From Paenibacillus mangrovi (lineage in GTDB: Bacteria > Bacillota > Bacilli > Paenibacillales > Paenibacillaceae): a stretch of 64,000 bases of DNA. The notes under the pieces were generated by a model. The model was not told the DNA's origin, did not search any database, and saw only the letters and a list, made by a program, of their open reading frames with translations. The stretch lies in the NCBI RefSeq assembly GCF_022898935.1, contig NZ_JALIRP010000006.1:310001-374000 (forward strand), written 5' to 3'. A program made the position numbers and the translations under genes. Of this stretch, positions 5,610 to 26,142 are shown piece after piece (the first letter of the stretch is position 1; each line of letters opens with the position of its first letter).

Positions 5610-6248
5610 TTAAATAAACTTTCGGTGAAGCTTTTTGCCGTCATGGGTGAACATAACTTTTCGATCCTCGATAATGGTTTCCAGATGGACGGTGCGGCCC
5701 CACAGCTGATAGACGTAAGGCATCGTCCGCTCCATATATTTCAGATCAAGCTCGGTTCCCTCGTATTCATGGCGGAGGACCAGCTCGCCGTTTCGTAGAT
5801 AATCACCGTCTGACACGACCAGGAACGGATTGCCCCCGTTGACTCTGGAGACCACCAGCTGATCCCGCACGCGTTCCCAAGCCTTCTCGGTAATTTTCCA
5901 CTCGGGTCCTTTCTTCTCAAAAACGTACAGATCCAGGTCTTCGGTTAAGTCTTTCGTTAGGTAATTACGGATAAACGAGATATCGGAGTCAAACTCGCGC
6001 ACCTCAAATATTTTCTCCCTGCCTTGACCTGGTTTTCTCCCGCCCAGTTCCCGTTCTTCTTTCGTCGGATTATCCCAGCGGCGTTCGATATCCTCGAGAA
6101 TTTTAAGCCCCAGGTAATACGGATTCAAGCTGTTGCGGGAAGGCTGCACGACAGAGGCGTTCAGCTTCGCGAATTCGATGGTTTCCTCGCTGGTCAGATC
6201 CAGCTCCCGGATGATGCGCTGATGCCAGTAGGAAGCCCAGCCTTCGTT
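5610..6248 (-). pseudogene. spoVR: spoVR C-terminal part, separated from its N-terminus by the genomic island
   Basis: The minus-strand frame reads [11 protein letters not shown] at its upstream end and continues through [16 protein letters not shown] to the stop at 5610. This is the C-terminal part of SpoVR, about 212 codons. It has no start of its own: immediately upstream of NEGWAS (CGC, then TAG) the frame hits a stop inside the island. The first 17 bp (6232-6248) repeat the bases at the end of the N-terminal fragment at 27691-27707. Joined there, both fragments are in the same frame and give an uninterrupted protein of about 480 residues, close to the 468 aa of B. subtilis SpoVR. No decay (stops, frameshifts) is seen, so this may be a functional split gene rather than a true pseudogene. 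Confidence 0.95.
6232..6248. repeat. attL core: 17-bp direct repeat at left island end
   Basis: GAAGCCCAGCCTTCGTT, identical to 27691-27707. It encodes part of the conserved SpoVR motif NEGWAS. On the island side it continues into GCGCT and AAGGTGCTTA (6254-6263), the inverted counterpart of TAAGCACCTT at the other end. Confidence 0.92.
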
Positions 6249-6264
6249 GCGCTAAGGTGCTTAT

Positions 6265-8199
6265 TTAAGTAGTTTGTTGACGTAGGTCGACTAGAGAAGT
6301 AAGTTTGTTTTTAATTAGATTTACTATAAAGTGTTCCAGCTTATCAAATGGTCGTAATAAACTAAGTCCCATATATCCAGCTACAGGAAAGAACGAGATA
6401 AATAAAAGAACTACTGGTATATGCACCCAAAGTGGTATGGTGAAATTGAGCATATAATAGGCAAATGTTTGTCCTGCAAGCAGTATAAGAACAATTACTG
6501 CTTTGATAATTTTAACGATTCTGCGCCCCCATGAAATTGAAATATTGTTGATCCGATCATTTCTTATTTCAGTTGCTGAAGCCACTTCTCTAATATAGGA
6601 CTCGAATTCAGCTTGTACTTCATCCTTCTTGCGCTGAGTTTCTTCTGTAATACTTTGTTGGTCTTTAATTAATTCGGCTTTTGACGCTGCCAAGATTTCT
6701 TCAATTGTTCCAATAGTGATTGCGTTTTCATCCCCGCTCGTAATCTCCATCATCAAAGAGCGAGCTTCTTGTGAATATCTTAGGATATAATAATCATCAC
6801 TCGTAATTGTACCATTGTTTTTTATCTCTTCGATTTTCTCGAAATATCGCTTCCAAATGTATTCAGGTGTTGCTGTTGATGCAACACAATCAGCTATAAT
6901 TCGTTTTCTTGTTAAAGTAGGAGAAGCAGTTGGGTTCTTAAGCCAAAGTAAATTTGTTAGGATATAAGCAGGTAAAACTGGTGGGATAATTCTGTTATTG
7001 TCTGACTCTTTAAAGAAGTATCGCTTGGTTATCTCCGCCAAACTGTGATTTGTGGTTATAAATAGTGCTTTGCAATTCTCGATATATATCGATGATTGTA
7101 ATTTCCTGAGGCGCATTATCGCAGCAATGGAAGTAACATCTCGTTCTAATGCCTGTTCTTTCGTATATCTAATTGATCCCCGTAATGTTTCAGTCAGACC
7201 ACGTTCATCAATATTAAACTCCTCAATGTAAGAAGGTTTCTCAAAAACCCTAATTTTCAATCTTTGCTCAATTTCATTTTCAACACTATAGATAAGTCGA
7301 TCAATATCGGTCGCTGTATATTTGTTAGCTAAAAAGTATTCCATTGTTCCGTGGTTGTCGACAAGGTTACCTGTCCTTAACCTATATTGACACCCCTCTA
7401 AAATACCTATGATTTCGTTAATGGTGTGTTTAAAGCATCTTAACACTGCATTTGAATCTTTTAATAAAGATATTAATTCAAGGCAAGGAGCTTGACGGGC
7501 TTCACCAGCATATCCCAACGCGTATATTAGAAAAGTTGTATCGAAATAAATTTGAGTATTATTTTGAAACTTCATCCCGGTATGTGCGGGATCCGTAAAA
7601 TATATAGCATTAGCTAACATATCGCCTTTGACAATAGATTCAAAGTAGCGATACTCGATTGAGTCAATATCAAGGCTTTTTATATACTGTCCAATTATAA
7701 AGGCAGGACTACCGTTATACTCCTCAGTATTAGTTACACTGGACTTTTCAATATTTAATAACAGAAGATTATTTCTTTTCAAGTAATGGTCAAATGCATT
7801 CTCGGCATCTTCTTTTGTCCAATTAATAGTTGGATATTTTTTGGAGAAACTTATTAATTGATTAATGAGTTTTTCATGTTGTTCAAGAATTGATTCTTGT
7901 TTTGAAACAAAATTTAATGATTCAAGCATTTCTCTGTTTGGAATGAATTTCTTATCTTTGTATTGTATGTATTTTTTTGATGTAAGCCTTCTTCTAAGAA
8001 TAGTATCGATTACATTAATTGGAATTTTAATGCCAAACTGTTTAGAAAGATCGTATTGTACTTCATTTGCTGAAATATATGGGCTAGTTGATCTTCTTAT
8101 ACATTCTGCAATCATGGGAACAAAGTTGTCGTAATAATCTTTGTTTTCTTGGTCATTTACCATCAAAATAGCATAATTTATTGCAGCAGAAATATTCAA
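6265..8199 (-). CDS. PIN-like domain protein with C-terminal membrane anchor (possible defence effector)
   Basis: 644 aa, unrecognised as a named family. N-terminus: NEVQYDLSKQFGIKIPINVIDTILRRRL (residues 45-72) resembles a winged-helix segment. Residues about 215-395 have PIN-nuclease features: IYFDTTFLIYAL (D220), TINEIIGIL (E262), LERDVTSIAAIMRL (D354) and ALFITTNHSLA (N384), the usual spacing of acidic residues and a late TTN motif. Residues about 495-550 are charged and probably helical; two hydrophobic segments (about 562-582 and 592-615) then anchor the protein, leaving a short tail. It is the gene next to attL, its stop only 2 bp from the att arm, and is strongly AT-rich. A membrane-tethered RNase acting in defence or as a toxin is my inference; the sequence shows only the domain pattern. 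Confidence 0.6.
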   Translation of the reverse strand: MNISAAINYAILMVNDQENKDYYDNFVPMIAECIRRSTSPYISANEVQYDLSKQFGIKIPINVIDTILRRRLTSKKYIQYKDKKFIPNREMLESLNFVSKQESILEQHEKLINQLISFSKKYPTINWTKEDAENAFDHYLKRNNLLLLNIEKSSVTNTEEYNGSPAFIIGQYIKSLDIDSIEYRYFESIVKGDMLANAIYFTDPAHTGMKFQNNTQIYFDTTFLIYALGYAGEARQAPCLELISLLKDSNAVLRCFKHTINEIIGILEGCQYRLRTGNLVDNHGTMEYFLANKYTATDIDRLIYSVENEIEQRLKIRVFEKPSYIEEFNIDERGLTETLRGSIRYTKEQALERDVTSIAAIMRLRKLQSSIYIENCKALFITTNHSLAEITKRYFFKESDNNRIIPPVLPAYILTNLLWLKNPTASPTLTRKRIIADCVASTATPEYIWKRYFEKIEEIKNNGTITSDDYYILRYSQEARSLMMEITSGDENAITIGTIEEILAASKAELIKDQQSITEETQRKKDEVQAEFESYIREVASATEIRNDRINNISISWGRRIVKIIKAVIVLILLAGQTFAYYMLNFTIPLWVHIPVVLLFISFFPVAGYMGLSLLRPFDKLEHFIVNLIKNKLTSLVDLRQQTT

Positions 8200-8572
8200 G
8201 ATGACGTTCCTCCGTTTAAAATTTATAACAAATTACCCCAAAATAGTCGGTCACATTTAAGTATAGTCGTAACAGAAGTTACAATCAATTAGTTCATTTC
8301 CCAAAAGCAATAACCCCCAATAACCGAGAAACGTTTACCATCCTAAAATCCTGTCCATAATGATGAATGTACGAAACGGACAAACCCCAGTGGACAAGCA
8401 CTTCCTCGGCTTTTCATCTCGGTAGCCGGGTAGGCTACCGATCGGGTGCCTAACTCGTTACCGAGATTTGGGCACCCGCGAAGGACAAGCTAACCCATTA
8501 ACCGAGAGCTTGTCCAGTTTCAACGACAAACCTGGCTAACTAAAAAACCGACCATCCCTAAAGGACGGTCGG
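8200..8572. other. Non-coding interval rich in hairpins between recombinase and PIN-like gene
   Basis: This 373-bp gap has no credible gene. Its distal two thirds carry consecutive perfect inverted repeats, described separately, and the minus-strand terminator. It would form the 5' leader of the PIN-like gene on the minus strand, or a separate structured RNA. No recognised riboswitch class was identified. Confidence 0.6.
8392..8515. repeat. Three consecutive perfect hairpins with a shared loop motif
   Basis: Hairpin 1: GGTAGCC (8421-8427) with GGCTACC (8433-8439). Hairpin 2: CGGGTGCC (8443-8450) with GGCACCCG (8471-8478). Hairpin 3: GGACAAGCT (8483-8491) with AGCTTGTCC (8507-8515). GGACAAGC also occurs at 8392-8399. 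The loops of hairpins 2 and 3 share the pattern TAACyCrTTAmCCGAG, a match also seen as ATAACCGAG near 8320. The regular layout suggests a structured RNA or a protein-binding array. Confidence 0.6.
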
Positions 8573-8574
8573 TT
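8541..8574 (-). terminator. Terminator of the recombinase operon
   Basis: On the minus strand AACCGACC-type arms (8546-8557 and 8563-8574) form a 12-bp stem with one mismatch, followed by TTTTTT. It overlaps the stop codon of the 525-aa recombinase. Confidence 0.8.
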
Positions 8575-10150
8575 AACTGATGGTCGTTCTGACAAGGCTA
8601 CTTCTAGTTTGGATTGCGAGATCTCCTTTCGTTACTACATGCTTACTGTCAATCGTTATAGGAGTAAAAACAGCCTGCTGAACCAGATATGTGATCATCT
8701 TTCGAATATCGTGATCATTGTCACGGCTGGTCATGATACTCATGGTCTTGATGTTACGAGTGATCTCATGCTGATTTCCTTCAATCATTTCGAGGTACTG
8801 AGCGCTCTTGTTCATTCGATTGATTTCAGATTGGAGAGCGATGATCCGGCTGCTCAATTGTTGCTTCTGTAATGTAAGAACTTGAACCATCTTTGTATTC
8901 TCGTCGATGGTTTCGAGGTCCTTCACCTTCGAGGCGAGCCGTTTGGAGTGTACGTCTGCCAGCTGCAATTGATTGTCTGTAGCAGTTAATTCGGTTTTAG
9001 CTTTATTCAACCGCTCAGCGACAAGTTGACGTTCTTTCAACATCTGCGCGTATACAAGAGAGCTTACGGTTTCCAGATTTTGTGATTTCAGGTCATTCAG
9101 TACGGCATCTATGACAGAATGTATCCGACCTGACTTAATTTTATATTTGCAGGTTGGGCAGCAGTACCATTTCTTGAGGTATTGCTTACCTGTCTTCTTA
9201 TAAGTTGTGCTTTGATCCTTACAGTTCAACATTTGGTTGCAAACGGCGCAAGATAGCAGATTGCTTAGGTAGAAGCTCGTTTTGTACATCTTGGGATTAA
9301 GATCACCGGTTTTTCTTTGCTCATAGATCGCCCAAGTTTCTTTCCATTCCTCCAAGCTCATAATGGGTACGATCAGATCGCTTTTGATCATCAACCACCC
9401 TTCCATTGGAGTAATCGAGTTTCTTGATCGTTCGGACTTGCGTTGATGTGTCATGTAACCAGCGTAAAATGGGTTCGTTATGATCCAGCGTACCGCTGAC
9501 TTATTTATTGATTTTCCGAATTCATGGCTAACAATAGAAGCAATCGATTGGAAGCCTTCGCGATTGCGGTACAATTCGTAAACTCGGCGAACAATAGTTA
9601 ACTCCGCTTCATATTGCGAGAACGTCTTAGTCGCTTTGTCATATCGGTAACCAAATGGAGCTTTACCGCCAGTCCACTTTCCTTGCTTGAGAATGTTTCT
9701 TGCAGTATCGCGGGTGCGTATACGTGTATTATCGACTTCTAATTTTGAGGTTCCATCCTTAATAAGATCCACAATAAAATCCCCGGAGTCATATAAGCTC
9801 TCAGAACTTGTGATGACAACAGGGATGTTGCAGCCGCTCAAAGTCATTCGGATCTTCTGGTGCTCCATCGGATTTCTCGCCATTCTATCATGGTGATTCA
9901 TCAACACAAAGTCGAATTTACCGTCAATCGCATCCTTGAGAAGTTGGGATACACCTGGTCGGTCATCTAATTGTTTCTTTCTGGCTGATACGGAGGGATC
10001 AAGATACTCATAGGCAATCGTACAGCCATATTTTTCAGCAAAATCATGTGCCATGGATTGCTGTGTTTCCATGTTTTGCTTAGCTGTAGAGTGCCGTCCA
10101 TAGAAGGCACCCTTCATGCCAGGTTGAATGAGATTAGCTAACGGCAACAT
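8573..10150 (-). CDS. Large serine recombinase (second of a coupled pair)
   Basis: 525 aa. Resolvase catalytic domain about residues 14-150 with FYGRHSTAKQNMETQQ (nucleophile S21) and DRMARNP. The 'recombinase' domain follows (GQGKWTGGKAPFGYRYD-like segment, then the NPFYAGYMTHQR motif), then a zinc ribbon with CAVC and CCPTC pairs and a long coiled-coil region near the C-terminus, the layout of integrases such as SpoIVCA, CcrB or phiC31. Its start overlaps the stop of the 483-aa recombinase by 17 nt, indicating translational coupling. Family knowledge: these enzymes catalyse attP x attB integration, and reverse it only with a directionality factor. The paired arrangement recalls ccrA-ccrB of SCC elements; the two probably act together. 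Confidence 0.9.
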   Translation of the reverse strand: MLPLANLIQPGMKGAFYGRHSTAKQNMETQQSMAHDFAEKYGCTIAYEYLDPSVSARKKQLDDRPGVSQLLKDAIDGKFDFVLMNHHDRMARNPMEHQKIRMTLSGCNIPVVITSSESLYDSGDFIVDLIKDGTSKLEVDNTRIRTRDTARNILKQGKWTGGKAPFGYRYDKATKTFSQYEAELTIVRRVYELYRNREGFQSIASIVSHEFGKSINKSAVRWIITNPFYAGYMTHQRKSERSRNSITPMEGWLMIKSDLIVPIMSLEEWKETWAIYEQRKTGDLNPKMYKTSFYLSNLLSCAVCNQMLNCKDQSTTYKKTGKQYLKKWYCCPTCKYKIKSGRIHSVIDAVLNDLKSQNLETVSSLVYAQMLKERQLVAERLNKAKTELTATDNQLQLADVHSKRLASKVKDLETIDENTKMVQVLTLQKQQLSSRIIALQSEINRMNKSAQYLEMIEGNQHEITRNIKTMSIMTSRDNDHDIRKMITYLVQQAVFTPITIDSKHVVTKGDLAIQTRSSLVRTTIS

Positions 10151-11585
10151 GTACGACTACCGCCTTTCCATTAAACGGGTCCCGAAATTGGATACTTAAT
10201 GAAGGTGCATCAAGCCCAATGTAATGAACGATGTCGCGGATGAATGCTTCTCTTTGACTGGTATCATAGGAGAGCACTTCGGATAGAAGATCAACAGATT
10301 GCTGAAGCTGCTCCATGAGTAGGTATTTTTCCTGCAATTCAGCTAACTTCTTTGGGTAATTCTCCTGCAGTAATTCCTCCAATCTAATGCTATTGTGCAG
10401 GTGAAGGAGTGCTTCTTGTAAATCAGGCGTCGGATTTTGCATCCATATCGAGGTGTCTTCATAAAGCTTCTGTTTGTAAAATTGAATCGCTTCGCGGCTC
10501 TCCGTTATAGATTGTTCATAAAACGTAATAAGGTCGCTATGCGTAATCTTGTACACTTCGGAAAAATAAGTCTGGAACTGTAGTGTGATGAACTTTGCGC
10601 ATTCCTCCAGTAGGGCTTCTTCCAGAAGATCAGGAGCTAGACGGAGATAATTATGTTTTTTGCATGTGTAAAACGTTCTTGTACTGATGTCCGTGATTTC
10701 TTTGCCGAACATGGCATTGCCGCACTTGCTGCAAAATAACAGTCCGTCAAGCATCATAGGCACTCGATTATGATTTCGAGTGCGAGTTTGCTTAAGGCTG
10801 TTCATTCGTTCTTGTGCTTTGTCCCAAGTAATCTCGTCGACGATGATGAGGTTTTCGTTCTCAATCTCTACGTACTCGCCGAACTCTTCGATCTTACGTA
10901 TGCCTTTGTATATCATGTTACCAATCAGGCTTTGAATACGGTTATAATCCCATTTCACAGGGAACCAAGTGTATTGCTGCATGTCTCGTACGAAGTCAGA
11001 GAATGAAGCGCACTTTGTGTCAATGATTGCATCGTATAGTTTTCTTATAATCTCTGCCTGATCAGGTTGCACATGATACAGCTTATCCTTGTCGACAAAA
11101 TATCCATAGGCGATCCGACCTTGAGCGTGTTTTCCTTGTTTCGTCATCGTATATTTCGTTTCTTTTATGCGTTGGACAATTTGGTTCGCTTCACGCTGAT
11201 TGAAGCCGGCGATGATGAGCTCGAAGAATTCTCCTGCAGGAGAATATTGAATCGGGATTTCATTGTCGGCTGTGAATACAACCGTTACCTGCTTGGACCG
11301 AAGTAACTCGAAGAGCTCCATAGATTGCACTACATTTCTGGCAAGGCGATCGCGCTTATACACATAAATCGTTGAGACTAATCCGTTTTCGATGTCTTGT
11401 ACTAGACGGTTCAACTCAGGTCGCGCACGTATTTCGGTTTTTCGTGCGGACACGGCTTCATCCAAATACAAATCATCAAACAGGATGCCTTTCGCTTTAA
11501 CTTTCTCAAGTGCAAGAGCCTTCTGCATATCGATCGAATGCTCTTGTGATTTGATTGAGCTTCGAGCATACAAAACGGTCTTCAT
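10134..11585 (-). CDS. Large serine recombinase (first of a coupled pair)
   Basis: 483 aa. N-terminal resolvase domain (about residues 1-145): VLYARSSIKSQEHSIDMQ with S10 in the nucleophile position, and YKRDRLARN. The recombinase domain follows (RIAYGYFVDKDKLYHVQPDQAEIIRKLYDAI), then a zinc ribbon (LFCSKCGNAMFG and TCKKH) and a helical C-terminus. AGGAG is positioned 10 nt upstream of the ATG and overlaps the stop codon region of the preceding 52-aa ORF. With that ORF and the 525-aa recombinase it forms a three-gene operon. It is a candidate for the enzyme that inserted, and could excise, the island. Confidence 0.9.
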   Translation of the reverse strand: MKTVLYARSSIKSQEHSIDMQKALALEKVKAKGILFDDLYLDEAVSARKTEIRARPELNRLVQDIENGLVSTIYVYKRDRLARNVVQSMELFELLRSKQVTVVFTADNEIPIQYSPAGEFFELIIAGFNQREANQIVQRIKETKYTMTKQGKHAQGRIAYGYFVDKDKLYHVQPDQAEIIRKLYDAIIDTKCASFSDFVRDMQQYTWFPVKWDYNRIQSLIGNMIYKGIRKIEEFGEYVEIENENLIIVDEITWDKAQERMNSLKQTRTRNHNRVPMMLDGLLFCSKCGNAMFGKEITDISTRTFYTCKKHNYLRLAPDLLEEALLEECAKFITLQFQTYFSEVYKITHSDLITFYEQSITESREAIQFYKQKLYEDTSIWMQNPTPDLQEALLHLHNSIRLEELLQENYPKKLAELQEKYLLMEQLQQSVDLLSEVLSYDTSQREAFIRDIVHYIGLDAPSLSIQFRDPFNGKAVVVHVAVS

Positions 11586-11591
11586 TGTTGA

Positions 11592-11750
11592 TTACTCCTC
11601 TCCCTGGCTATCGCCTGAATGCTCAGCGATGAGCTGCTTTTTCAAAAGCTGCACGTATAGATCCATCCATTTACGTGCGGCATCCGGATCGTGAATTTGG
11701 GTGATGGATGAGATTTGAAAATCGGTGGTACGTGACTTTTTACGGTTCAT
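11592..11750 (-). CDS. Small 52-aa protein heading the recombinase operon
   Basis: I start at ATG 11750 because TAGGAGGA lies 9 nt upstream; a longer frame upstream lacks a site. It begins MNRKKSRTTDFQ and is rich in charged residues (DAARKWMDLYVQLLKKQLIAEH is probably a helix). No family recognised. Its stop is 6 bp before the first recombinase start, so it is cotranscribed and probably coupled. Position and size would suit a recombination directionality factor or an accessory DNA-binding protein; this is inference only. Confidence 0.65.
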   Translation of the reverse strand: MNRKKSRTTDFQISSITQIHDPDAARKWMDLYVQLLKKQLIAEHSGDSQGEE

Positions 11751-11783
11751 GGTGTTATTCCTCCTAAGGTGGTGATGAAGGTA
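11751..11783. promoter_or_regulatory. 33-bp divergent junction with back-to-back ribosome-binding sites
   Basis: The minus-strand 52-aa ORF and the plus-strand XRE gene are separated by only 33 bp, which hold AGGAGG for the former and AAGGTGG for the latter almost back to back. Both promoters must therefore lie inside the opposite gene, and the two transcripts overlap at their 5' ends. Confidence 0.7.
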
Positions 11784-12128
11784 ATGAGTAATTTTGGACA
11801 ACAACTTCGGCTAATCAGACAACAGAAGGGATTCGGACTTAATGAATTCGCGAAGGAGTTAGGTGTGTCGCCTGCATACTTAAGTAATTTGGAAACAGGT
11901 AAAACACAAACCATCCAATTGGAAGTATTGAGCAAGCTACAGTATGAGCTTCAAATGATCGTTGATGAGATGAATACGATGGATGATCCGGTCGCATGGC
12001 GTGCAGAGCGAATAAGCGAATTACTTCTAAACTTGAATCGTACGCATCCGACTGTGGCGGATTACTTCATGTCAATGATCGAGCAAGGGATAGAACTTTT
12101 CACAGCTAGATCATCCGGCATTCATTAA
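11784..12128 (+). CDS. XRE-family transcriptional regulator of the island
   Basis: 114 aa from ATG 11784 (AAGGTGG 11 nt upstream; in-frame ATG 11775 or GTG 11769 are alternatives). Residues about 5-60 form an HTH_3 domain: LRLIRQQKGFGLNEFAKELGVSPAYLSNLE. The C-terminal half is acidic and helical, perhaps for dimerisation. It is divergent from the recombinase operon, with overlapping 5' regions, so it is the natural candidate for a repressor that keeps the recombinases silent. It ends in a convergent terminator. Confidence 0.85.
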   Translation: MSNFGQQLRLIRQQKGFGLNEFAKELGVSPAYLSNLETGKTQTIQLEVLSKLQYELQMIVDEMNTMDDPVAWRAERISELLLNLNRTHPTVADYFMSMIEQGIELFTARSSGIH

Positions 12129-12154
12129 GCTGCCCCAAACATTGGAAGAGTATA

Positions 12155-12184
12155 CACGATCATAAACGATCATTTATGATCGTG
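12155..12184. repeat. 12-bp perfect inverted repeat with 6-nt spacer
   Basis: CACGATCATAAA (12155-12166) and TTTATGATCGTG (12173-12184) flank CGATCA. There is no T-tract, so it is not a terminator. It could be an operator for the adjacent XRE protein or a recombinase accessory site. Confidence 0.6.
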
Positions 12185-12205
12185 AATAAACTGGCGTCGT
12201 AGTGG

Positions 12206-12243
12206 AAAGCCTAACTCCTGTAATTGGAAGGAGTTAGGCTTTT
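12206..12243. terminator. Bidirectional terminator
   Basis: AAAGCCTAACTCCT pairs with AGGAGTTAGGCTTT around an 8-9-nt loop. It lies between the convergent XRE gene and the 86-aa gene and overlaps the latter's stop codon. Confidence 0.85.
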
Positions 12244-12494
12244 GGCGTGTATTCCGTTAATTCTAAAGTAAGACCTTCCTGTACCATCGCTACTTGGAGA
12301 TTGAAACGGTTATCTTTGCCGAGCCTTTGATGAAGCCAAACATCCGCTGCTGCGCGTCTTAGCTGATTTTCAAAATCATACAGTCGGCGTAAAACAAGGT
12401 CAGAGAATGAGTGCTGTTTTAAATCGGATAATGAGGTAAAGCTGTTCTGTGCGTCTCGATGTTCAATGGTGAAACGAACCTTGAGTTGTCCCAT
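12234..12494 (-). CDS. Conserved-looking 86-aa hypothetical protein
   Basis: Starts at ATG 12494 with GAGGTGATC just upstream. Short soluble protein with MGQLKVRFTIEHRD, a helical middle (DLVLRRLYDFENQLRRAAADVWLH) and a beta-rich end (VQEGLTLELTEYTP). Not recognised. It is divergent from the third recombinase across a 104-bp interval, so it may be part of that recombinase's control region. Confidence 0.55.
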   Translation of the reverse strand: MGQLKVRFTIEHRDAQNSFTSLSDLKQHSFSDLVLRRLYDFENQLRRAAADVWLHQRLGKDNRFNLQVAMVQEGLTLELTEYTPKA

Positions 12495-12532
12495 ATGATC
12501 ACCTCGATTCTATTCTATGCGGGAGAATCCAT

Positions 12533-12580
12533 TGGACAACCTTACGTTTTAACATAAATTTACGTGGACAGGCATAGGTA
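12533..12580 (+). promoter_or_regulatory. Candidate promoter region of the third recombinase
   Basis: A SigA-like reading is TGGACA (12533-12538), 16 bp, TAAATT (12555-12560). A SigE-like reading is cATAaat (12553-12559), 12 bp, gCATAGGTA (12572-12580), but its spacer is about 2 bp short and transcription would start almost on the ribosome-binding site. Neither is convincing without transcript data. Confidence 0.3.
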
Positions 12581-12598
12581 TGGACAAGGAGGGAAGTC

Positions 12599-14077
12599 AT
12601 GAGCAGAATACGTAAAACTGATCCAGAAGTCGATCTCTGCTATGTGGCTTTGTACTGCCGAGTCTCGACGGATGAGCAAGCACGGGAAGGCGTCTCGTTG
12701 GACGAACAGCAAGAACGTTTGAAAGCTTATTGCAGGGCAATGGGCTGGTCAGATCATGTGCAGGTTTTTGTGGACGATGGATTCTCCGCCAAAAATCTGG
12801 ACCGACCGGAGCTTAAGCGATTGATTCAGGCTGTCAAAAATGGTAGCGTCTCTCGAATCATGGTAACCAAGTTGGATCGAATGAGCAGAAGACTACTCGA
12901 TCTGCTTAACTTAATTGATTTATTTCAGGATTATGAAGTTTCATTTGTATCCATCAGTGAATCATTCGACACGAATACGCCTTCTGGTAGGCTTACGTTG
13001 CAGGTATTAGGGGCAGTAGCTGAATTTGAAAGGGAACGGATTCGTGAACGTGTGTTTGAAAATATGTTTCATGCCGCAAATACAGGGAAATGGCTGACAC
13101 AAAGTCCATATGGTTATGATTTGGTGGACAAGTCATTAGTTATCAATGATAAAGAAGCTGAGATCGTAAGGAGGGTCTATGATTTGTACCTCAATGAGGG
13201 ACTTGGATTCTATTCGATTGCCAAAGGATTAAATGAGGAAGGAGTTCCATCCAGACAGCGAAAAGAATGGTCGATTCGAGCAATTAAACTGATGCTAACC
13301 AATCCTGCTTACAAAGGCACATTGGTATGGAACCGGAAAGATTCAAGTAAATCGCAGCGTAAAGATAAGGATATAGCGGAATGGGTAACTGTCGAAGACT
13401 GCCTTCCTATTATTATAGAGAAGTCCGTCTGGGAACGGGTACAAAATCGGATGGGACAAATAACAATGGCTCCAAGAGCGAAATCAAGCCCACATTTATT
13501 GGGCGGTTTATTGAGGTGTGGAAAATGCGGTTCTGGTATGAGCATCGGTTTTTCGGGATCTCCTAGCAAAAGATACCGGGTTTATCGCTGCTCTGCGAAT
13601 AAAAACAAAGGTACCTGTACAAGTAAGCAATACCGGGCTGATTCGGTCGAGGAATGGTTTAAAGAAGGTTTGGTGCAGCTCATGGAAGATACATCAGGCA
13701 TTCTTATGATTATGGTGAAGGATGCTGCTGTTAAGTCGGAGCGAGAGCAGCTAGAGCAAAAGGTAAACACAGCAAAAGCGCGCTATAAGAGGAAAATTGA
13801 AGCTTACACCTCTGGACTAATCGAGTTGGAGGATTTGAATGAGGAAAAGGAAAGGCTTGATCAAATCCTCCTTGATCTGGAGAAAATGTCCCGCGGTGAA
13901 GTCGAAACGGTAGATATGGAGCAGCTTCAACAAGAACTTAATGATAAAGTGAATAATATCATTTCTGCAATAGATATATTGCCTGTCGAGCAAGCGAAAG
14001 GGATTATTCAGACGTTCATTCAGTACGTGGTTATTCATGGTGACAAGGATATTGAGATAAAATTGCAACCAATCTGA
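12599..14077 (+). CDS. Large serine recombinase, SpoIVCA/PinE type (third, separate)
   Basis: 492 aa with a strong AAGGAGG site. Resolvase domain residues about 13-160: ALYCRVSTDEQAREGVSLDEQ with catalytic S23, DGFSAKNLDRPELKRL and KLDRMSRRLLDL. Recombinase domain about 175-290 (KWLTQSPYGYDLVDKSLVIN, then NPAYKGTLVWNR). Zinc ribbon LLRCGKCGSGM ... YRCSANKNKGTC, then a coiled-coil region. It resembles the classic SpoIVCA/phage-integrase group more than the coupled pair does. It is transcribed away from them and ends in an 18-bp terminator stem. Any of the three may act on the spoVR att site. Confidence 0.92.
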   Translation: MSRIRKTDPEVDLCYVALYCRVSTDEQAREGVSLDEQQERLKAYCRAMGWSDHVQVFVDDGFSAKNLDRPELKRLIQAVKNGSVSRIMVTKLDRMSRRLLDLLNLIDLFQDYEVSFVSISESFDTNTPSGRLTLQVLGAVAEFERERIRERVFENMFHAANTGKWLTQSPYGYDLVDKSLVINDKEAEIVRRVYDLYLNEGLGFYSIAKGLNEEGVPSRQRKEWSIRAIKLMLTNPAYKGTLVWNRKDSSKSQRKDKDIAEWVTVEDCLPIIIEKSVWERVQNRMGQITMAPRAKSSPHLLGGLLRCGKCGSGMSIGFSGSPSKRYRVYRCSANKNKGTCTSKQYRADSVEEWFKEGLVQLMEDTSGILMIMVKDAAVKSEREQLEQKVNTAKARYKRKIEAYTSGLIELEDLNEEKERLDQILLDLEKMSRGEVETVDMEQLQQELNDKVNNIISAIDILPVEQAKGIIQTFIQYVVIHGDKDIEIKLQPI

Positions 14078-14155: not shown

Positions 14156-16006
14156 TCATGGTTTTAATTTTAGATTATTATCTCTATTATCCCAGCCTGT
14201 TACCTTGCCGTTAGAAAATGAAATAGTGGAATTACCGTAATACCATGTACTTAGAGGACCAATCTCCATAATTTGATTGGGTGTTCCCATAACGGACTGA
14301 ACATCTTGATCCGTAGAACCTAATGAAAAATTGCCCACTTTAATCGAAGAATGTTTCAATTTTAAATTTCGGTCTCTATCATCCCAGCCTGTTACCTTGC
14401 CGTTAGAAAATGAAATAGTGGAATTACCGTAATACCATGTACTTAGAGGACCAATCTCCATAATTTGATTGGGTGTTCCCATAACGGACTGAACATCTTG
14501 ATCCGTAGAACCTAATGAAAAATTGCCCGCTTTAATCGAAGAATGTTTCAATTTTAAATTTCGGTCTCTATCATCCCAGCCTGTTACCTTGCCGTTAGAA
14601 AATGAAATAGTGGAATTACCGTAATACCATGTACTTAGAGGACCAATTTCCATAATTTGATCGGGTGTTCCCATAACGGACTGAACATCTTGATCCGTAG
14701 AACCTGATGAAAAATTACCTTCTTTAATCGAGGAATGTTTCAATTTTAAATTTCGGTCTTTATCATCCCAGCCCTTTACCTTGCCGTTAGAAAATGAAAT
14801 AGTGGAATTACCGTAATACCATGTACTTAGGGGACCGACTTCCATAATTTCATCGGGTGTCCCCATAACGGATTGAACATCTTCAGAAGAGGATCCAGAT
14901 GAAAAAGTGCCCTCTTTTGTAGTAGATGATGGATTATTATCTAACACTGAATTGTTTTGCTCAGTAACTTCCTCGATCTCTAATGGTTCATCCTTTGTTA
15001 TGTCAGGGGTGGAAACATCGTTTTCACTAAAAGTTTCAATGTTGGTTATTAAATCTGTTTCTTCAGATACGGGATCTGTATTTATGCTCGTTAGATCTTC
15101 GAGAGGAAAGGGATCCTCTTCGCCTTCAGCTTCAGTATCTAAAGCAGGCTGTTGTAAATTTAAATTTAATTCTGGTTCCTCAGATTTAAGGACTAATGGA
15201 GTGTCAGTGTTGCCAGTAAAATTAAAAATCTTAATGCATATTAATATTAAGATGACAACGCCTATGGTTTTTAAATAAGCTCTCCAATTAAATCCAACTC
15301 TGAAATCAAAATATGATTGTTTTGCAGTGCGTTCCGGATTAGCAAACTTGTTATAGTTTAGATCACCGAGAAAGAAATCATATTCAAATCGGTTTCGATA
15401 AAACCGATATTGTCTATCGAATATTCTGCGTCTGTCAGCGTCCATTAAGGTTTCATACGCATTTTTTAGTACCTTAAAAGATTCTTCATCTCCTCCTACA
15501 TCAGGATGGTTTGTTTTTGCTTTTAATCGAAAAGTTTTCTTTATTTCATCTGTATTGGCAGCTGAGGAGACGCCTAAAATTGAATAGTAATCAACAAATC
15601 CTTTGAATAAACCAAGAATATCTACTGAATCCCCATAGGGTTCAAACTCAACGCCATAATGTTTTTCGTAAATTAATTTTGAAATATGTAACTGTGCATT
15701 ATGATATGTACATTGATTGTACAGGGAATAAAATTCACCCTGTTGTTTTGAATCGATTTCTAGATTAATTTGAATCTGTTCTAATTGGGGGAATAATATG
15801 CAAGAAAGATGGTGAAAAAGAAAATTAATAGCCTCTTTGATCTGAGTTTGATTGTAATCCCGAAACAAGATAATGATCCAGTTGATTAGACATTTCTTTA
15901 TTTCATCATCAGCCCATAACTCACTATTTACAATCTCGTATTTTTTTAAATACCATAGAACAATTTTTGGAATTGATTCAATTCCCTTATACCGAGGTAG
16001 CCCCAT
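14156..16006 (-). CDS. Membrane J-domain protein with four 64-residue C-terminal repeats
   Basis: 616 aa. An N-terminal helical region (1-130) precedes a DnaJ domain (about 138-200: DYYSILGVSSAANTDEIKK, HPD at 167-169). One membrane segment (about 244-263) leads to an acidic Ser/Thr/Glu-rich linker (about 270-360) and four nearly identical 64-aa repeats to the end. Each repeat contains DVQSVMGTPD, STWYYGNSTISFSNGKV and GWDD, a small beta-rich unit recalling SmpA/OmlA-like folds. Family knowledge: HPD stimulates the ATPase of an Hsp70 partner, but no DnaK is encoded here, so it would use the host's. AGGAGATGG precedes the ATG. It is 20 bp downstream of a second J-domain gene in the same operon. 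Function unknown. Confidence 0.75.
   Translation of the reverse strand: MGLPRYKGIESIPKIVLWYLKKYEIVNSELWADDEIKKCLINWIIILFRDYNQTQIKEAINFLFHHLSCILFPQLEQIQINLEIDSKQQGEFYSLYNQCTYHNAQLHISKLIYEKHYGVEFEPYGDSVDILGLFKGFVDYYSILGVSSAANTDEIKKTFRLKAKTNHPDVGGDEESFKVLKNAYETLMDADRRRIFDRQYRFYRNRFEYDFFLGDLNYNKFANPERTAKQSYFDFRVGFNWRAYLKTIGVVILILICIKIFNFTGNTDTPLVLKSEEPELNLNLQQPALDTEAEGEEDPFPLEDLTSINTDPVSEETDLITNIETFSENDVSTPDITKDEPLEIEEVTEQNNSVLDNNPSSTTKEGTFSSGSSSEDVQSVMGTPDEIMEVGPLSTWYYGNSTISFSNGKVKGWDDKDRNLKLKHSSIKEGNFSSGSTDQDVQSVMGTPDQIMEIGPLSTWYYGNSTISFSNGKVTGWDDRDRNLKLKHSSIKAGNFSLGSTDQDVQSVMGTPNQIMEIGPLSTWYYGNSTISFSNGKVTGWDDRDRNLKLKHSSIKVGNFSLGSTDQDVQSVMGTPNQIMEIGPLSTWYYGNSTISFSNGKVTGWDNRDNNLKLKP
14159..14920. 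repeat. Four tandem 192-bp repeats inside the J-domain gene
   Basis: The anchor TACCATGTAC recurs at 14241, 14433, 14625 and 14817, an exact 192-bp (64-codon) period. The three units nearest the 3' end are almost identical at DNA level; the innermost (about 14729-14920) is more diverged. This implies recent expansion and likely copy-number variation. Confidence 0.95.
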
Positions 16007-16972: not shown

Positions 16973-17887
16973 TTACTCATCTTGTGATTGAGGTAATTCG
17001 TCACCAAGCATTTCTTGGAGCTCCTCGGGATCTTCAGGAATATCAAAGAAGTCTGGGTCCAGTTGAGCATTGATTTTCTCGTAATCATCTACATTTAATT
17101 GCTGCTGCATGCTGAATGATGAGGTTAAATTTTCCTTTCTTGGGCGTCCTCTTTTTCTTGATGAGGTATTTTCATTTTCCTTTTGCGGTTTGCGTTGAAG
17201 GAGCAATTCGGTTTCTTTTCTTGCATATTCTGTTTTTAATTGCTCAACTTCCAACTTTCTTTCATATTCCATGCGTAACAGATCAATTTGGTGCTGCTGC
17301 TTTTGGCATTGTTCATTGAGTATACTGTTCTCTTCAGTTAGTCGTTGAACAATAGCTGGATAATCTGAAGATTCCCATTGTGTACGTTCATGTCTCATAA
17401 CCTCAACCACAGCTTCCTTATCAGCCAATGATTTCTTCAAAGTTCCACAAAGATCTTCAAGAACACTGTTTTGCTTGTGCCGTTCTAAAAGGTCTTTCGT
17501 TTGCTGATTTGACTGCTCTTCAATCTCGAGTAATCTGGCTCCCATTTTATCTTTCAATTGTTCGCTTTGCTGTAATTGATGTCTTAGCTCTTCCAATGTC
17601 GTCAACCATTCAGCTTCTTGATGTGCTGTTTCGTCGGCTGTCTTCTTCATCATTTGCACAATAGTTTCTTGAACCCGGGTTATGTTCTGTTCAATGTATT
17701 CCAAATCGTTAGCGTATCGTTTCGTTGCGTCTTGATGTTTTAACTGGTGAAGATCATAGATAGAGAGGAGATGCTGGAACCATTCTTTTTGCGTTTCGAA
17801 GTCTGAATTTTTGAACAGTTGATCAATCTTTTCCTTCAGTTCGGGAGCGACCTTTACTCCAAATGTTACATCCGCCATATTCTTCAT
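16973..17887 (-). CDS. RHH-like / coiled-coil / AT-hook DNA-binding protein (KfrA-like architecture)
   Basis: 304 aa; AAGGAG lies before ATG 17887. The N-terminus (VTFGVKVAPELKEKIDQLF, then QKEWFQHLLSIYDL) resembles a ribbon-helix-helix domain. Residues about 60-225 are a long coiled coil (ETIVQMMKK, QQSEQLKDKMGARLLEIEEQ). SRKRGRPRKE (about 243-252) is a classic AT-hook. The tail is acidic (DPDFFDIPEDPEELQEM). The layout recalls KfrA-type plasmid proteins that coat DNA and aid partition or silencing. In this island it could silence or organise AT-rich cargo; that is inference. Confidence 0.6.
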   Translation of the reverse strand: MKNMADVTFGVKVAPELKEKIDQLFKNSDFETQKEWFQHLLSIYDLHQLKHQDATKRYANDLEYIEQNITRVQETIVQMMKKTADETAHQEAEWLTTLEELRHQLQQSEQLKDKMGARLLEIEEQSNQQTKDLLERHKQNSVLEDLCGTLKKSLADKEAVVEVMRHERTQWESSDYPAIVQRLTEENSILNEQCQKQQHQIDLLRMEYERKLEVEQLKTEYARKETELLLQRKPQKENENTSSRKRGRPRKENLTSSFSMQQQLNVDDYEKINAQLDPDFFDIPEDPEELQEMLGDELPQSQDE

Positions 17888-19817: not shown

Positions 19818-19985
19818 AGATGATGTAACACAGAGCTTGAATGAATTGATAATAAAAGGTGTTTAAGGACTTTATATCGAATAATGATAGAATCTGCTAC
19901 TATAGAACTAGTCTTATTATGCATTCGTGATAGATAGTTGTTATCAGAACCTGTAAATATCAACTGCGTATCGAGGTGTGGTGAA

Positions 19986-22900
19986 ATGGTTGGAAACTTT
20001 AAATTTTTGCAAAACCACTGGGAAATCTTATCGAACCTTGGCGAGATGGCGGAGCGTAATGTGCTCATTGATCCGAACACATCCCTGATTAAACTCCGCA
20101 TGTTCGGCGAGACATTAACGAAATACATATGTGCGATGGAAGAAATGGATGAGACGAAGGAGCTTTCGCAGGTCGACCGGTTGTCACAGCTGAAGCGGGA
20201 GGATCTCATAGCCGATGACATCGTGGATTACTTCCACACCCTTCGCAAGATCGGAAATAAAGCCGCTCACGAACCAGGTTACGGTTCAACGCGTGAAGCG
20301 CAAGCTTTGACGCTGCTGGCTTTCCGGCTTAGCGTTTGGTTTATGCAAGTATACGGTGATTGGAATTTCCAAGCGCCTGAATATATAGAGCCAGCAGAGC
20401 AGCAGGATACCGCTAGCAATGAAGAACAGCTGGATCAGTTGGCAAAAGCCTATGAAGAGAAGATGGCAAAGCTCCAGCAAGAGCTGGCTGCACTTCGCCA
20501 GCAACAGACTAATGTTACACAAGAGGATAAAAAGAAGCGTCATACGAAGTCGAAGCAAGCAGGCAGTGCCTTTACGCTTACGGAAGCTGAGACAAGGCTC
20601 ATTATCGATGAGAAGTTGTGTCAAGCTGGTTGGGAAGTAGATTCCCAAACGCTGCGTTATGGACTAGGCACTCGCCCGGAGAAAGGGCGCAATATTGCTA
20701 TCGCGGAATGGGCGCTAAAGACAGGATTCGCGGACTACGCACTGTTCTGCGGATTAGAATTAGTCGGGATCGTAGAAGCGAAGCGAATCAGCAAGAACGT
20801 AGAAGCGGACATCGCTCAAGCCAAAAAGTACGCGATGCAAGTCGTACGCCATGGCGATGAAATCATCCACGGACCGTGGGGCAACTATCAGGTGCCGTTC
20901 CTATTCTCGACGAATGGTCGTCCATACCTGGAGCAGCTGAAGCATATGTCCGGTATTTGGTTCCTGGACGCTCGCAAACCGACGAACCATCCGCGTCCAC
21001 TTCAAGCGTGGTATTCGCCGCAAGGGCTGAAGGATTTGCAACGGCAGGATGTAGAGAAGGCAGCCAAAGACTTGCAGGACGAGACGTTGGATTACTTGAA
21101 GCTACGTCCTTACCAGGAGGATGCAATTCTGTCTGTTGAGGGAGCGATTGATAACGGACAGCGTAGCATTTTGCTGGCGATGGCGACTGGCACCGGCAAA
21201 ACCCGTATGGCAATCGGGCTTATTTACCGTCTGATCAAGCATAACCGCTTTAAGCGTATTCTGTTCCTAGTGGACCGTTCGGCGCTGGGGCGTCAAGCAG
21301 AAGCGGCGTTCAAGGACTCCAAGCTGGAGAGCTATCATTCGTTTACGGAAATTTTTGAGCTTCAGACATTGGATGATAGGAAGCCGAATCCGGAGACGAA
21401 AGTGCAGATCGCTACTGTACAAGGGATGGTCAAGCGTATCTTCTATAACGAATCAGACGAGGCGGATATTCCATCCGTTGACCAATATGACTGCGTGATC
21501 GTCGATGAAGCCCATCGCGGTTATACTCTGGACAAGGAAATGTCCGAGCTGGAGCTAGAGTTCCGTGACCATGAGGACTATGTCAGCAAATACCGCAAGG
21601 TGCTTGATTATTTCGATGCGGTCCGGATCGGATTGACGGCAACGCCGGCTCTGCATACGGTTGAGATTTTTGGGCGTCCGGTCTTTAACTATTCATATCG
21701 TGAAGCGGTTATCGACGGGTATCTGATCGACCATGAACCTCCTATGCAGTTCGAAACTCAACTGAAGAAGCACGGGATCAAATGGCAGGTTGGCGAAGAA
21801 GTTGCAGTGTATGACATTTCGTCAGGTAATATTGAGAAAGAGCTGCTGCAGGATGAAATCAATTTGGAAGTGACCCAGTTCAATAAAACGGTCATTACGG
21901 AAAACTTCAACCGCGTCATTCTGGAAGAGCTGACGAAATATATCGATCCCGAATCAGACGGAAAGACGCTTATTTTCGCCGCGACCGACGATCATGCAGA
22001 TATGGTTGTGCGGATTTTCAAGGAAGAGTTGGAGAAAGCATATGGCGCGGTAGACGACAATGCCGTCCTCAAAATAACAGGATCGATCAAAGATCCGCTG
22101 CATGCCATTAAGCTGTTCAAAAATGAACGGCTGCCAAGCATCGTCGTAACGGTCGATTTGCTGACAACGGGCGTAGATATTCCAAGCATTACGAATCTCG
22201 TTTTTCTTCGTCGCGTGCGTTCGCGGATCTTGTATGAACAGATGCTAGGCAGAGCGACGAGAAGGTGCGACGAGATTGGCAAGGATCATTTTATGATCTA
22301 TGACGCCGTTGGAATCTATGAGACGTTGAAGCCGTACACGGACATGAAGCCGGTGGTGACGAAGCCGACGGTATCGCTTGATGTGCTGACGAATGAGCTG
22401 GCACATCTGGAGAGCGAAGAGCTGGGCAAGCCGCATAAAGATCAGATCATTGCCAAAATGCAGCGCAAGAAGCGTACTTGGATGCAGAAGGACCATGACG
22501 ACTTCAAGGCACTGTCCGGCGGGATGAGCATTGAGAAGTTTATCGAAGACTTAAAGAGCATGAGCGCTCTGCAAGCAAGCGCTGATTTGCAGGCGAAGAA
22601 GCCGCTGGTTGCTTTTATTGATGAGAATCGCGGCAGAGGACACCGGATCTATATATCGGAGCATGAAGATAAGCTGCTCTCCACCTCGCGTGGTTATGGT
22701 GACGCCGACAAGCCGGAGGATTACCTAGAAGGATTCCATGCATTTATCACAGAGAATCTGAACCTGATCCCGGCGCTCACGATTATTTGCACACGTCCGA
22801 ATGACCTGACACGTGATGAATTGCGCAAGCTTCGAGTGGAGCTCGACCAGAAGGGCTATTCGGAGAAAATGCTTCAGGCGGCATGGCGGGATGCGAAGAA

Positions 22901-23237
22901 CGAAGATATCGCAGCGGACATTATCAGCTTTATCCGTCAGCAGGCGCTCGGAGACCCATTAATTAGCCATGAAGAGCGGATTGAAGGCGCGATGAAAAAA
23001 ATATATGATATGAAAGTCTGGTCGAAGGTTCAAAAGGACTGGCTGAAACGAATCGAGAAACAGCTGCTCCAGGAATCGGTCTTAGACCCGAATCCAGAGA
23101 GAGCATTTGAGGTAGAGCCATTCAAGAGCAAGGGCGGCTATAAGCAGCTGAACAAGATTTTCGATGGCGAGATGGACACGATTGTAAAAACAATTAATAC
23201 AGCATTGTATACACCACGAAAGAGGGATTACGCGTAA
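19986..23237 (+). CDS. hsdR: HsdR, type I restriction enzyme translocase/nuclease subunit
   Basis: 1083 aa from ATG 19986 (GAGGTG at 19973-19978). Order of parts: N-terminal DUF4145-like region (FKFLQNHWEILSNLGEMAERN, HTLRKIGNKAAHE), coiled coil (EEKMAKLQQELAALRQQQ), a PD-(D/E)XK nuclease core (GFADYALF ... GIVEAKR, about residues 246-266), then a superfamily 2 motor: Walker A MATGTGKT (about 399-406), DEAH box VDEAHR (about 505), GLTATP motif, TTGVDIP and QMLGRATRR. The C-terminal part fits the EcoEI-type HsdR end. With HsdM and HsdS it forms the complex that cleaves unmodified DNA after translocation. The hsdM ATG follows its stop codon directly. All key motifs are intact. Confidence 0.96.
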   Translation: MVGNFKFLQNHWEILSNLGEMAERNVLIDPNTSLIKLRMFGETLTKYICAMEEMDETKELSQVDRLSQLKREDLIADDIVDYFHTLRKIGNKAAHEPGYGSTREAQALTLLAFRLSVWFMQVYGDWNFQAPEYIEPAEQQDTASNEEQLDQLAKAYEEKMAKLQQELAALRQQQTNVTQEDKKKRHTKSKQAGSAFTLTEAETRLIIDEKLCQAGWEVDSQTLRYGLGTRPEKGRNIAIAEWALKTGFADYALFCGLELVGIVEAKRISKNVEADIAQAKKYAMQVVRHGDEIIHGPWGNYQVPFLFSTNGRPYLEQLKHMSGIWFLDARKPTNHPRPLQAWYSPQGLKDLQRQDVEKAAKDLQDETLDYLKLRPYQEDAILSVEGAIDNGQRSILLAMATGTGKTRMAIGLIYRLIKHNRFKRILFLVDRSALGRQAEAAFKDSKLESYHSFTEIFELQTLDDRKPNPETKVQIATVQGMVKRIFYNESDEADIPSVDQYDCVIVDEAHRGYTLDKEMSELELEFRDHEDYVSKYRKVLDYFDAVRIGLTATPALHTVEIFGRPVFNYSYREAVIDGYLIDHEPPMQFETQLKKHGIKWQVGEEVAVYDISSGNIEKELLQDEINLEVTQFNKTVITENFNRVILEELTKYIDPESDGKTLIFAATDDHADMVVRIFKEELEKAYGAVDDNAVLKITGSIKDPLHAIKLFKNERLPSIVVTVDLLTTGVDIPSITNLVFLRRVRSRILYEQMLGRATRRCDEIGKDHFMIYDAVGIYETLKPYTDMKPVVTKPTVSLDVLTNELAHLESEELGKPHKDQIIAKMQRKKRTWMQKDHDDFKALSGGMSIEKFIEDLKSMSALQASADLQAKKPLVAFIDENRGRGHRIYISEHEDKLLSTSRGYGDADKPEDYLEGFHAFITENLNLIPALTIICTRPNDLTRDELRKLRVELDQKGYSEKMLQAAWRDAKNEDIAADIISFIRQQALGDPLISHEERIEGAMKKIYDMKVWSKVQKDWLKRIEKQLLQESVLDPNPERAFEVEPFKSKGGYKQLNKIFDGEMDTIVKTINTALYTPRKRDYA

Positions 23238-24725: not shown

Positions 24726-26142
24726 GAAAAATTCTAAGTCGCAGGAAGAGCTGTTGAAAGAGGCTTTGGTTCCAGAAGATGAGCAGCCTTATGAGCTGCC
24801 GGCGAATTGGGTCTGGACTATAATGAATAAAGTCGTTGATGTAAGAGATGGTACTCACGATACACCTAAATATGTTGACAACGGCTATCCATTAGTAACA
24901 TCCAAAAATTTGAAAAATGGTTTGATTGATTTTTCAAATGTACAATATATCAGTGAAGAAGATCATATTGTAATAAATAAACGATCAAAAGTTGATGAAT
25001 ATGATACTTTATTTGCGATGATTGGTACGATAGGCAATCCATGCTATGTTGAGAATATACAGAATGAATTTAGTATAAAAAATGTTGCATTATTTAAGCC
25101 AAAGTTGATTGAAGCCAAGTTTTTATTCAGGTATTTAAGTAGCCCTCAGTATATTGAACCACTTGTTAATAATGCTAAAGGGAGTACACAGAAATTTGTA
25201 TCTTTAGGTGTTCTAAGAAACAGCAAGATCCCACTTCCACCATTAAACGAACAAAAACGAATCGCTGACAAAGTCGAAAAGCTCTTGAACAAAATCAATC
25301 ATGCCAAACAACTAATTGAAGAAGCCAGAGCAACCTTTGAACTTCGTCGAGCGGCGATTTTGGACAAGGCTTTTCGTGGGGAGTTTACAAAAAATAAGAT
25401 TTGTTTAGTAGACAATGTCATACTAAATTCAAACAAAGGTCAAATGATAGATGATGGAAAAAGCGAGGATTTACACAGACAATTAGTGAATATTATCCCG
25501 AAAAATTGGATTATTCATCCATTAGGTAATTTACTGCGTGAGGAAACGAGCATTTGTTACGGTATAGTCCAAACCGGTAAGGATACACCAGATGGAGTTC
25601 CAACAGTGCGTGCGGGTGATTTAAAGAATGGTTATTTTGATGTAAAAAGTTTGAAAAAAGTTGATAAAGAAATTGAAAAAAACTATCCACGTTCTAGACT
25701 TTCTGGAAGCGAATTATTAATTTCAATACGTGGTAGTGTTGGGTATGTTGGTATCCCTACTTCCGAGATGCAGGGAATAAATGTATCACGAGAAGTAGCA
25801 GTAATACCAATGAATAGGTCATTAACACAAAAATATTTGTCTTATTATTTCCAGTCTCCTATTGTACAAAACTATTTGAAATTAATTACCAAAGGTGTAG
25901 CCCAGCAAGGAATAAATTTAAATCAACTACGTACTTTACCTGTACCAGTACCTTCAATTATTGAACAAAATGATATAGTGAATTTTTTAGATGACCTGTT
26001 AGAAAAAGAAAAAATAATTAATCAAAATTTTGAAATGTTAAATGAAGATAATCTTAATAAATTGTCACAGACCTTGCTTTCCAGAGCGTTCCGTGGGGAA
26101 TTGGGAACAACTGACTTAGCTGAAAAAAATGCTCTGTGCTAA
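24718..26142 (+). CDS. hsdS: HsdS, type I specificity subunit
   Basis: 474 aa from ATG 24718. Two target-recognition domains, TRD1 (about residues 30-165, begins LPANWVWTIMNKVVDVRDGTHDTP) and TRD2 (about 255-400, IPKNWIIHPLGNLLREETS). Two conserved helical spacers follow them: LPPLNEQKRIADKVEKLLNKI with ILDKAFRGEF, and VPSIIEQNDIVNFLDDLLEKE with LLSRAFRGELG. TRD sequence sets the bipartite target, which cannot be deduced here. The gene is clearly more AT-rich than hsdR and hsdM, consistent with exchange of specificity genes between strains. Confidence 0.94.
   Translation: MSKKNSKSQEELLKEALVPEDEQPYELPANWVWTIMNKVVDVRDGTHDTPKYVDNGYPLVTSKNLKNGLIDFSNVQYISEEDHIVINKRSKVDEYDTLFAMIGTIGNPCYVENIQNEFSIKNVALFKPKLIEAKFLFRYLSSPQYIEPLVNNAKGSTQKFVSLGVLRNSKIPLPPLNEQKRIADKVEKLLNKINHAKQLIEEARATFELRRAAILDKAFRGEFTKNKICLVDNVILNSNKGQMIDDGKSEDLHRQLVNIIPKNWIIHPLGNLLREETSICYGIVQTGKDTPDGVPTVRAGDLKNGYFDVKSLKKVDKEIEKNYPRSRLSGSELLISIRGSVGYVGIPTSEMQGINVSREVAVIPMNRSLTQKYLSYYFQSPIVQNYLKLITKGVAQQGINLNQLRTLPVPVPSIIEQNDIVNFLDDLLEKEKIINQNFEMLNEDNLNKLSQTLLSRAFRGELGTTDLAEKNALC

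Follow-up and report, generated by a model that had tools for sequence, protein, structure and literature searches.

A conserved serine recombinase pair and a candidate recombination site beside it in an island that splits spoVR of Paenibacillus mangrovi

Among described intervening elements, gin is the closest known system to the locus reported here. It lies in gerE of Bacillus cereus ATCC 10987 and encodes girA, girB, girC and girX (PMC5595907). According to the part of that report available to us, gin can be excised without girAB, GirC and the 42-aa GirX suffice for excision in vitro, and no girAB transcript was detected from growth to T6 of sporulation; its authors suggested multimer resolution as one possible role for girAB (PMC5595907). 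We analysed a 64,000-nucleotide stretch of Paenibacillus mangrovi (assembly GCF_022898935.1, contig NZ_JALIRP010000006.1, positions 310,001 to 374,000; hereafter the window), in which an island splits spoVR and carries two coupled genes for large serine recombinases (the pair), a 52-aa gene (o52) ahead of them, a divergent gene for an XRE-family regulator (xre) and a third, 492-aa recombinase. On balance, we lean towards the view that the pair, o52 and XRE form an accessory recombination module with its own DNA site, and that the 492-aa enzyme excises the island, probably a non-phage one of the gin type. The features of the module are as follows (ORF, open reading frame; dN/dS, ratio of nonsynonymous to synonymous substitution rates).

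8573–10150, minus strand: 525-aa large serine recombinase, recB of the pair (ORF list, Pfam)
10134–11585, minus strand: 483-aa large serine recombinase, recA of the pair, GirA/GirB-type by position (ORF list, Pfam)
11592–11750, minus strand: o52, 52-aa gene (ORF list, dN/dS)
11784–12128, plus strand: xre, XRE-family regulator, head to head with o52 (ORF list, Pfam)
8546–8574, minus strand: terminator-like hairpin 3ʹ of the 525-aa gene

A preliminary description of this DNA had proposed that o52 and the two recombinase genes are coupled, and that xre diverges from them. Both proposals hold: the 483-aa and 525-aa genes overlap by 17 nt, the gap from o52 to the 483-aa start is 6 bp, and 33 bp (11751–11783) separate the ATG of o52 from that of xre. 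Both pair proteins contain Resolvase and Recombinase domains, and the XRE protein contains a helix-turn-helix domain (Pfam). The 52-aa protein has no match in Pfam, PHROGs or NCBIfam. That o52 is a real gene is supported by an o52-like ORF ahead of the pair at 23 of 25 loci and by the substitution pattern of its sequence. Of 15 pairwise comparisons in the A-type set of elements, 14 were computable, and all of these have dN below dS; dN/dS is ≤0.27 in 13, and the remaining value, 0.56, comes from two near-identical copies. The family is centred on a motif like SISYVHDPEAA..W...YV. Its exact start is unsure in four A-type relatives and in Cohnella, because the aligned start codon is TTG in the former and ATT in the latter. 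The structure predicted from a five-row alignment is one helix at residues 22–45 (mean pLDDT 70.9, pTM 0.39).

The pair, o52 and xre are a conserved unit: 19 of the 25 loci have an xre gene that diverges from the module. Within the genus, the 525-aa type occurs in 10 of 100 genomes, at 12 loci. Across the class, 15 of 398 genomes drawn carry it, which adds 11 loci beyond the genus, in eight other families, and a scan of named genomes gave four loci, two of which repeat G032 and G054 and two of which are new (Cohnella sp. WQ 127256 and Paenibacillus sp. J45TS6). We did not find an o52-like ORF ahead of the 483-aa-type gene at G151 and G116, or a head-to-head xre at G472, G382, G458, G151 and G339. 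At G083b, a D-type pair adjoins leftover B-type o52 and xre genes. Plasmids gave no match to the 525-aa query at 1e-20 or to two other recB queries at 1e-25; the 483-aa query had 2 weak plasmid matches, and the 525-aa query reached 106 distant plasmid records at 1e-5. Phages gave no match to the 525-aa query at 1e-20, and viral contigs gave none.

The island that carries this module, and the third recombinase with the small gene next to it, are delimited as follows.

6232–27707, minus strand: whole insertion in spoVR with both cores (core-to-core distance 21,459 bp)
5610–6251, minus strand: spoVR 3ʹ part (PF04293 positions 264–404 at 5838–6248; open frame 5613–6251)
27672–28511, minus strand: spoVR 5ʹ part, whose ORF extends beyond the core into the insertion (PF04293 positions 3–271 at 27684–28496)
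6232–6248, minus strand: 17-bp core at the 3ʹ-spoVR junction, with element arm GCACCTTAGC on its upper side
27691–27707, minus strand: 17-bp core at the 5ʹ-spoVR junction, with the mirrored element arm on its inner side
12599–14077, plus strand: 492-aa large serine recombinase, putative spoVR integrase and excision enzyme (Pfam, tree)
12234–12494, minus strand: o86, 86-aa gene flanked by xre and the 492-aa gene; directionality factor candidate for the 492-aa enzyme

The two breaks in spoVR have the 17-bp repeat in common. Flanks joined at this core give an open 480-aa SpoVR with 93.3% identity over 480 aa to an intact relative, as is expected of an intervening element: a mother-cell gene is split, and is intact again once the insertion is removed in silico. 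In the six elements that were read at their junctions, the arms are mirror images about the core, with small differences. A spoVR 5ʹ piece that ends at profile position 270–271 occurs in 7 of the 61 genus genomes drawn, one of which, G040, has an additional intact spoVR. This intact copy lies between the split pieces (L023/L024). G032 has a second, broken spoVR 3ʹ piece within its island (L021/L022), and in G042 a 492-aa-type remnant and an additional 3ʹ piece come after an intact spoVR (L025); the extra copies in these three genomes look like stacked insertions. The orientation of the module relative to spoVR is opposite in B and C type elements (L015, L017) and A type elements (L023). Searches of the window for tRNAs and Rfam families gave no match.

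Which recombinase acts at spoVR? Loci with a 492-aa-type enzyme coincide with a spoVR split at the same place, with J45, G129 and G288 as weaker cases, and the tree of third recombinases unites the 17 rows labelled spoVR in a single clade (98/94; recovered in 98% of 200 bootstrap trees). The pair, by contrast, varies independently of the target gene. The gerE rows group with G054_spoVR in the tree of each pair member (100/99 and 100/100), and the spoVR target needs three changes; many deep forks in these trees are weak and several rows lie on long branches, while the join of gerE rows and G054_spoVR is well supported. G022, G053, G099, G054 and G083b have a near-identical third recombinase (end branches 0.015–0.04), and their pairs are nonetheless of three types, B, C or D. 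The recA tree lacks G116, the recB tree G116 and G288, and the recC tree G151; for the tree, stops within recB of G040, G472 and G382 were treated as X, and the G040 recB was omitted from alignment A5. For J45 and G129, the spoVR label rests on the 492-aa-type enzyme: the J45 locus retains one element arm and a 34-residue spoVR remnant, and the spoVR pieces of G129 are on contigs other than the pair's. The spoVR pieces of G191 and G082 are outside the pair's stretch, on the same contig and on either side of it, and G288 has its 5ʹ piece next to the module and its 3ʹ piece on a different contig.

Three loci are in gerE (G057, the second of G082 and the first of G083), with a GerE domain in the 5ʹ piece, and their third recombinase differs from the 492-aa type. 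When the gerE pieces of G057 are joined at AACCACATCTC, a GerE-like reading frame is open, at the codons given for gin in the portion of the report available (PMC5595907). AACCACATCTC is exact on both sides in G057 only, and the 3ʹ copies in G082 and G083 differ. Among the cargo genes of gerE elements there are several copies of a stretch of ~90–175 bp with the gerE 3ʹ end (L077–L079 joined to L045, L047, L048), as if islands had been added one at a time. The G472 locus is beside a sigma-factor fragment with regions 2 and 4, which we take to be sigK, and the G382 locus is beside a family-18 glycosyl hydrolase fragment; G458, G151 and G339 are left without an assigned target gene.

The module had been put forward earlier as a possible recombination control unit. 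The claim that it governs excision of the island is weakened by the behaviour of the 492-aa enzyme, which tracks the insertion site, and by the published account of gin, in which the pair is dispensable and its transcript undetected (PMC5595907). We consider it unlikely that the pair, o52 as a directionality factor and XRE constitute a switch that excises the island from spoVR, with the 492-aa enzyme in a secondary role. The three components do stay together in spoVR elements of several families, and coupled pairs are reported to excise staphylococcal cassette chromosome (SCC) elements (PMC5595907), but it is the 492-aa type that follows the target gene, and the gin pair is not required for excision as far as the report describes it (PMC5595907). 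Because the third recombinase follows the target and girAB is dispensable in gin, the pair is probably not the excision enzyme at spoVR. Given the anatomy of the island and the analogy to gin, the 492-aa enzyme is the recombinase that probably both integrates and excises the island at spoVR. All 16 intervals read from xre to the 492-aa-type gene hold an ORF that resembles o86 by eye, and o86 is a better candidate than o52 for the directionality factor at spoVR. We propose that the 492-aa recombinase, with a directionality factor for which o86 is the candidate, would excise the island at the 17-bp cores during sporulation, presumably in the mother cell, and so restore spoVR. In B and C type elements, DNA homology ends within the last codons of the 492-aa-type gene, and the C-terminus varies with the cargo (L015, L017, L019).

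If the pair does not act at spoVR, a different substrate would be expected. The DNA immediately downstream of recB contains a conserved site with four copies of the box CTCGGT.

8316–8572, minus strand: conserved noncoding site with CTCGGT boxes R1 (8501–8506), R2 (8460–8465), R3 (8418–8423, inverted) and R4 (8323–8328)
8418–8465, minus strand: 48-bp imperfect palindrome bounded by R2 and R3, centred between A and T (18 of 24 positions paired, a score reached by 0 of 2000 inner shuffles)

Six A-type elements have in common ~260 bp of noncoding sequence after the 525-aa gene, and in all six the homology ends abruptly, directly past R4. This end could mark either a recombination edge or simply the limit of a functional site, and we do not count it as evidence of recombination. 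We scanned 24 loci for the array, leaving out G288, whose contig ends inside recB; the recB ends of G472 and G382 are uncertain in this test because both genes hold a stop. The boxes are at positions 0, +41 to +44, +83 to +86 (inverted) and +177 to +183. An array with 0 or 1 total mismatch is present at 14 of the 24 loci, in both spoVR and gerE elements (0 of 200 shuffles each; ≤4 mismatches were expected from no shuffle). At all 14, R2 and R3 bound a palindrome of 48–50 bp centred between A and T, which at 11 is a centre between GA and TC. Pairing exceeds chance at 13 of the 14 (≤49 of 2000 inner shuffles) and is within chance at G054 (158 of 2000). The palindrome of G083b is perfect over 50 bp, with CTCGGT at its ends. 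R2–R3 has the form of an attachment site for a large serine recombinase, a ~50-bp imperfect palindrome around a central dinucleotide. A further box, R5, 30–43 bp past R4, is exact at 6 of the 14 loci, has one mismatch at 2 and is absent at 6, including the window. In the 5.94-Mb genome, TTCTCGGTTATTNGG occurs once exactly and twice at one mismatch, as compared with 4 matches at ≤1 mismatch for the backward control. Two adjacent boxes, searched as an exact pattern, match in 1 of 100 genus genomes, at a pair locus.

The four-box site with its palindrome, just 3ʹ of the pair, is apparently a new candidate recombination site. We infer that the pair, inactive at the spoVR cores, would act on this site with o52 as its dedicated partner, so that circular islands, or neighbouring ones, would be fused, resolved or exchanged. 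As for o52 itself, its product is a possible directionality factor and, if so, is more likely to serve the pair than the 492-aa enzyme. A narrower form of the same proposal is that the pair and site resolve multimers of the circular island, the array being a resolution site with accessory boxes. An array of ~180 bp that combines one palindrome with extra boxes at fixed spacing would suit such a function, as would the role suggested for girAB (PMC5595907). We regard this version as improbable; we noticed no replication gene in the window's island, although no test was made for one. It is also doubtful that the four-box array is an origin, a transfer site or a regulatory site and that the pair acts elsewhere. 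Repeated boxes and a dyad would fit such sites too, and no recombination product has been seen. Nevertheless, the array adjoins recB in elements that differ in target and family, and in size and symmetry its palindrome is what a large serine recombinase site should look like, an expectation drawn in part from the available text on gin (PMC5595907).

How is the pair controlled? The preliminary description placed the promoters of xre and of the recombinase genes inside each other's genes. The start codons are indeed too close for ordinary promoters to lie between them, but there is no sigma-70-like site at 11600–11900 on either strand to support the rest of the claim; in 8300–12700 there are 9, against 8.6 expected. 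Synonymous sites at the 5ʹ end of the A-type xre genes show no special conservation: invariant codons number 2 of 7, 0 of 9 and 1 of 9 within the first 30, as compared with 16 of 39 in the remainder (five of the six A-type genes, J45 having been dropped for an indel). A switch in which XRE sets either repressor on or recombinases on is plausible. In such a scheme, XRE would act as a repressor and hold the activity of the pair off in a settled island.

Several observations weigh against an accessory module with its own site. The array is missing at 8 of the 24 loci (G022, G053, G099, G472, G382, G458, G151 and G339), among them the three B-type spoVR elements, and is present only in part, with 5 mismatches, at G083b and G116 (1 of 200 and 0 of 200 shuffles). 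Since the spacing windows were set after several arrays had been seen, and the last one is wide (150–187), several of the array loci are not independent tests. Synonymous-site conservation did not reveal an operator for XRE. Ahead of the 492-aa gene, the window's best sigma-E-like promoter match is equalled in 196 of 200 shuffles, and among 492-aa-type genes only G191 stands out (3 of 200 shuffles). In favour of the module, G040 has an in-frame TAG in recB and an open 492-aa-type gene, but this says little because G040 also has an intact spoVR. Lastly, the window pair is likened to girAB by position and operon layout, from the published description.

The remaining genes of the island include its cargo.

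19938–26142, plus strand: type I restriction, modification and specificity genes (cargo)
6265–8199, minus strand: 644-aa protein without significant family match (cargo), between the four-box site and the spoVR core
16973–17887, minus strand: 304-aa protein with relatives in A-type spoVR elements and some gerE elements

One gene of the island matches ZacB/DrmC (PADLOC, E 8.4e-12). The cargo of relatives includes JetABCD (G040), a CBASS-type cyclase with a phospholipase effector (Cohnella), SIR2-HerA (J45TS6) and a helicase like PDC-S37/Hhe (G057). The 304-aa protein ends in a KRGRPRK-like stretch, and its relatives in gerE elements are more distant (e.g. L045 2588–3352). A DnaJ-domain gene (14156–16006) contains four tandem copies with a 192-bp period at 14161–15036. 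Pfam found no phage structural genes among the larger island ORFs, and PHROGs, applied to eight proteins, six of them outside the pair, gave one weak structural match (E 0.084).

The available text of the gin paper leaves the role of girAB open (PMC5595907). For such a pair there are now a putative partner family of small proteins, a putative regulator and a candidate site on the DNA, and an accessory that had lacked an explanation becomes a system whose substrate can be tested. Modules of this kind accompany different putative integrases in spoVR and gerE, and probably in further genes of the mother cell. The pattern suggests a family of islands that carry defence genes and reside in genes required only by a cell that dies. 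More speculatively, the pair, o52 and the four-box site could be an autonomous heteromeric system that joins or swaps defence cargo between islands in different spore genes; the sporulation gene would be a protected docking place and the third recombinase a replaceable adaptor. We offer this broader idea tentatively.

A literature search by title and start of abstract, in which most subscription journals are outside coverage, gave no account of this module. In SPbeta in spsM and skin in sigK, a serine integrase rejoins a mother-cell gene, with a small directionality factor where known, as far as the available accounts go (PMC4191935, PMC6957869, PMC5025042); these elements differ from the spoVR island in being phage or prophage-like and in having a single recombinase. 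The vrin element is likewise an intervening element in spoVR, in Geobacillus thermoglucosidasius, but phage-related genes are reported for it; we liken the two by description (PMC4191935). The ccrA/ccrB genes of SCC, to which the pair had been compared earlier, are also two coupled large serine recombinase genes on a cargo island (PMC5595907). The likeness of the coupled pair stands as a resemblance only, since the Ccr models score far below their cut-offs (for CcrB, with an NCBIfam cut-off of 900 bits, the 525-aa protein scores 75, the 483-aa protein 68 and the 492-aa protein 222). Furthermore, ccrAB integrates its own island (PMC5595907), whereas in the spoVR island it is the third enzyme that tracks the site. 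The window's island differs from gin in its target, spoVR rather than gerE, although three relatives of the module are in gerE. The pair genes of the window overlap, and o52, the divergent xre and the four-box site go unmentioned for gin in the portion of its description available to us (PMC5595907). What the two have in common, on the same partial account, is an island in a mother-cell sporulation gene, non-phage in gin and probably so in the window, with a restriction-modification system, a short repeated core with inverted arms, and three serine recombinases, two of them in an operon.

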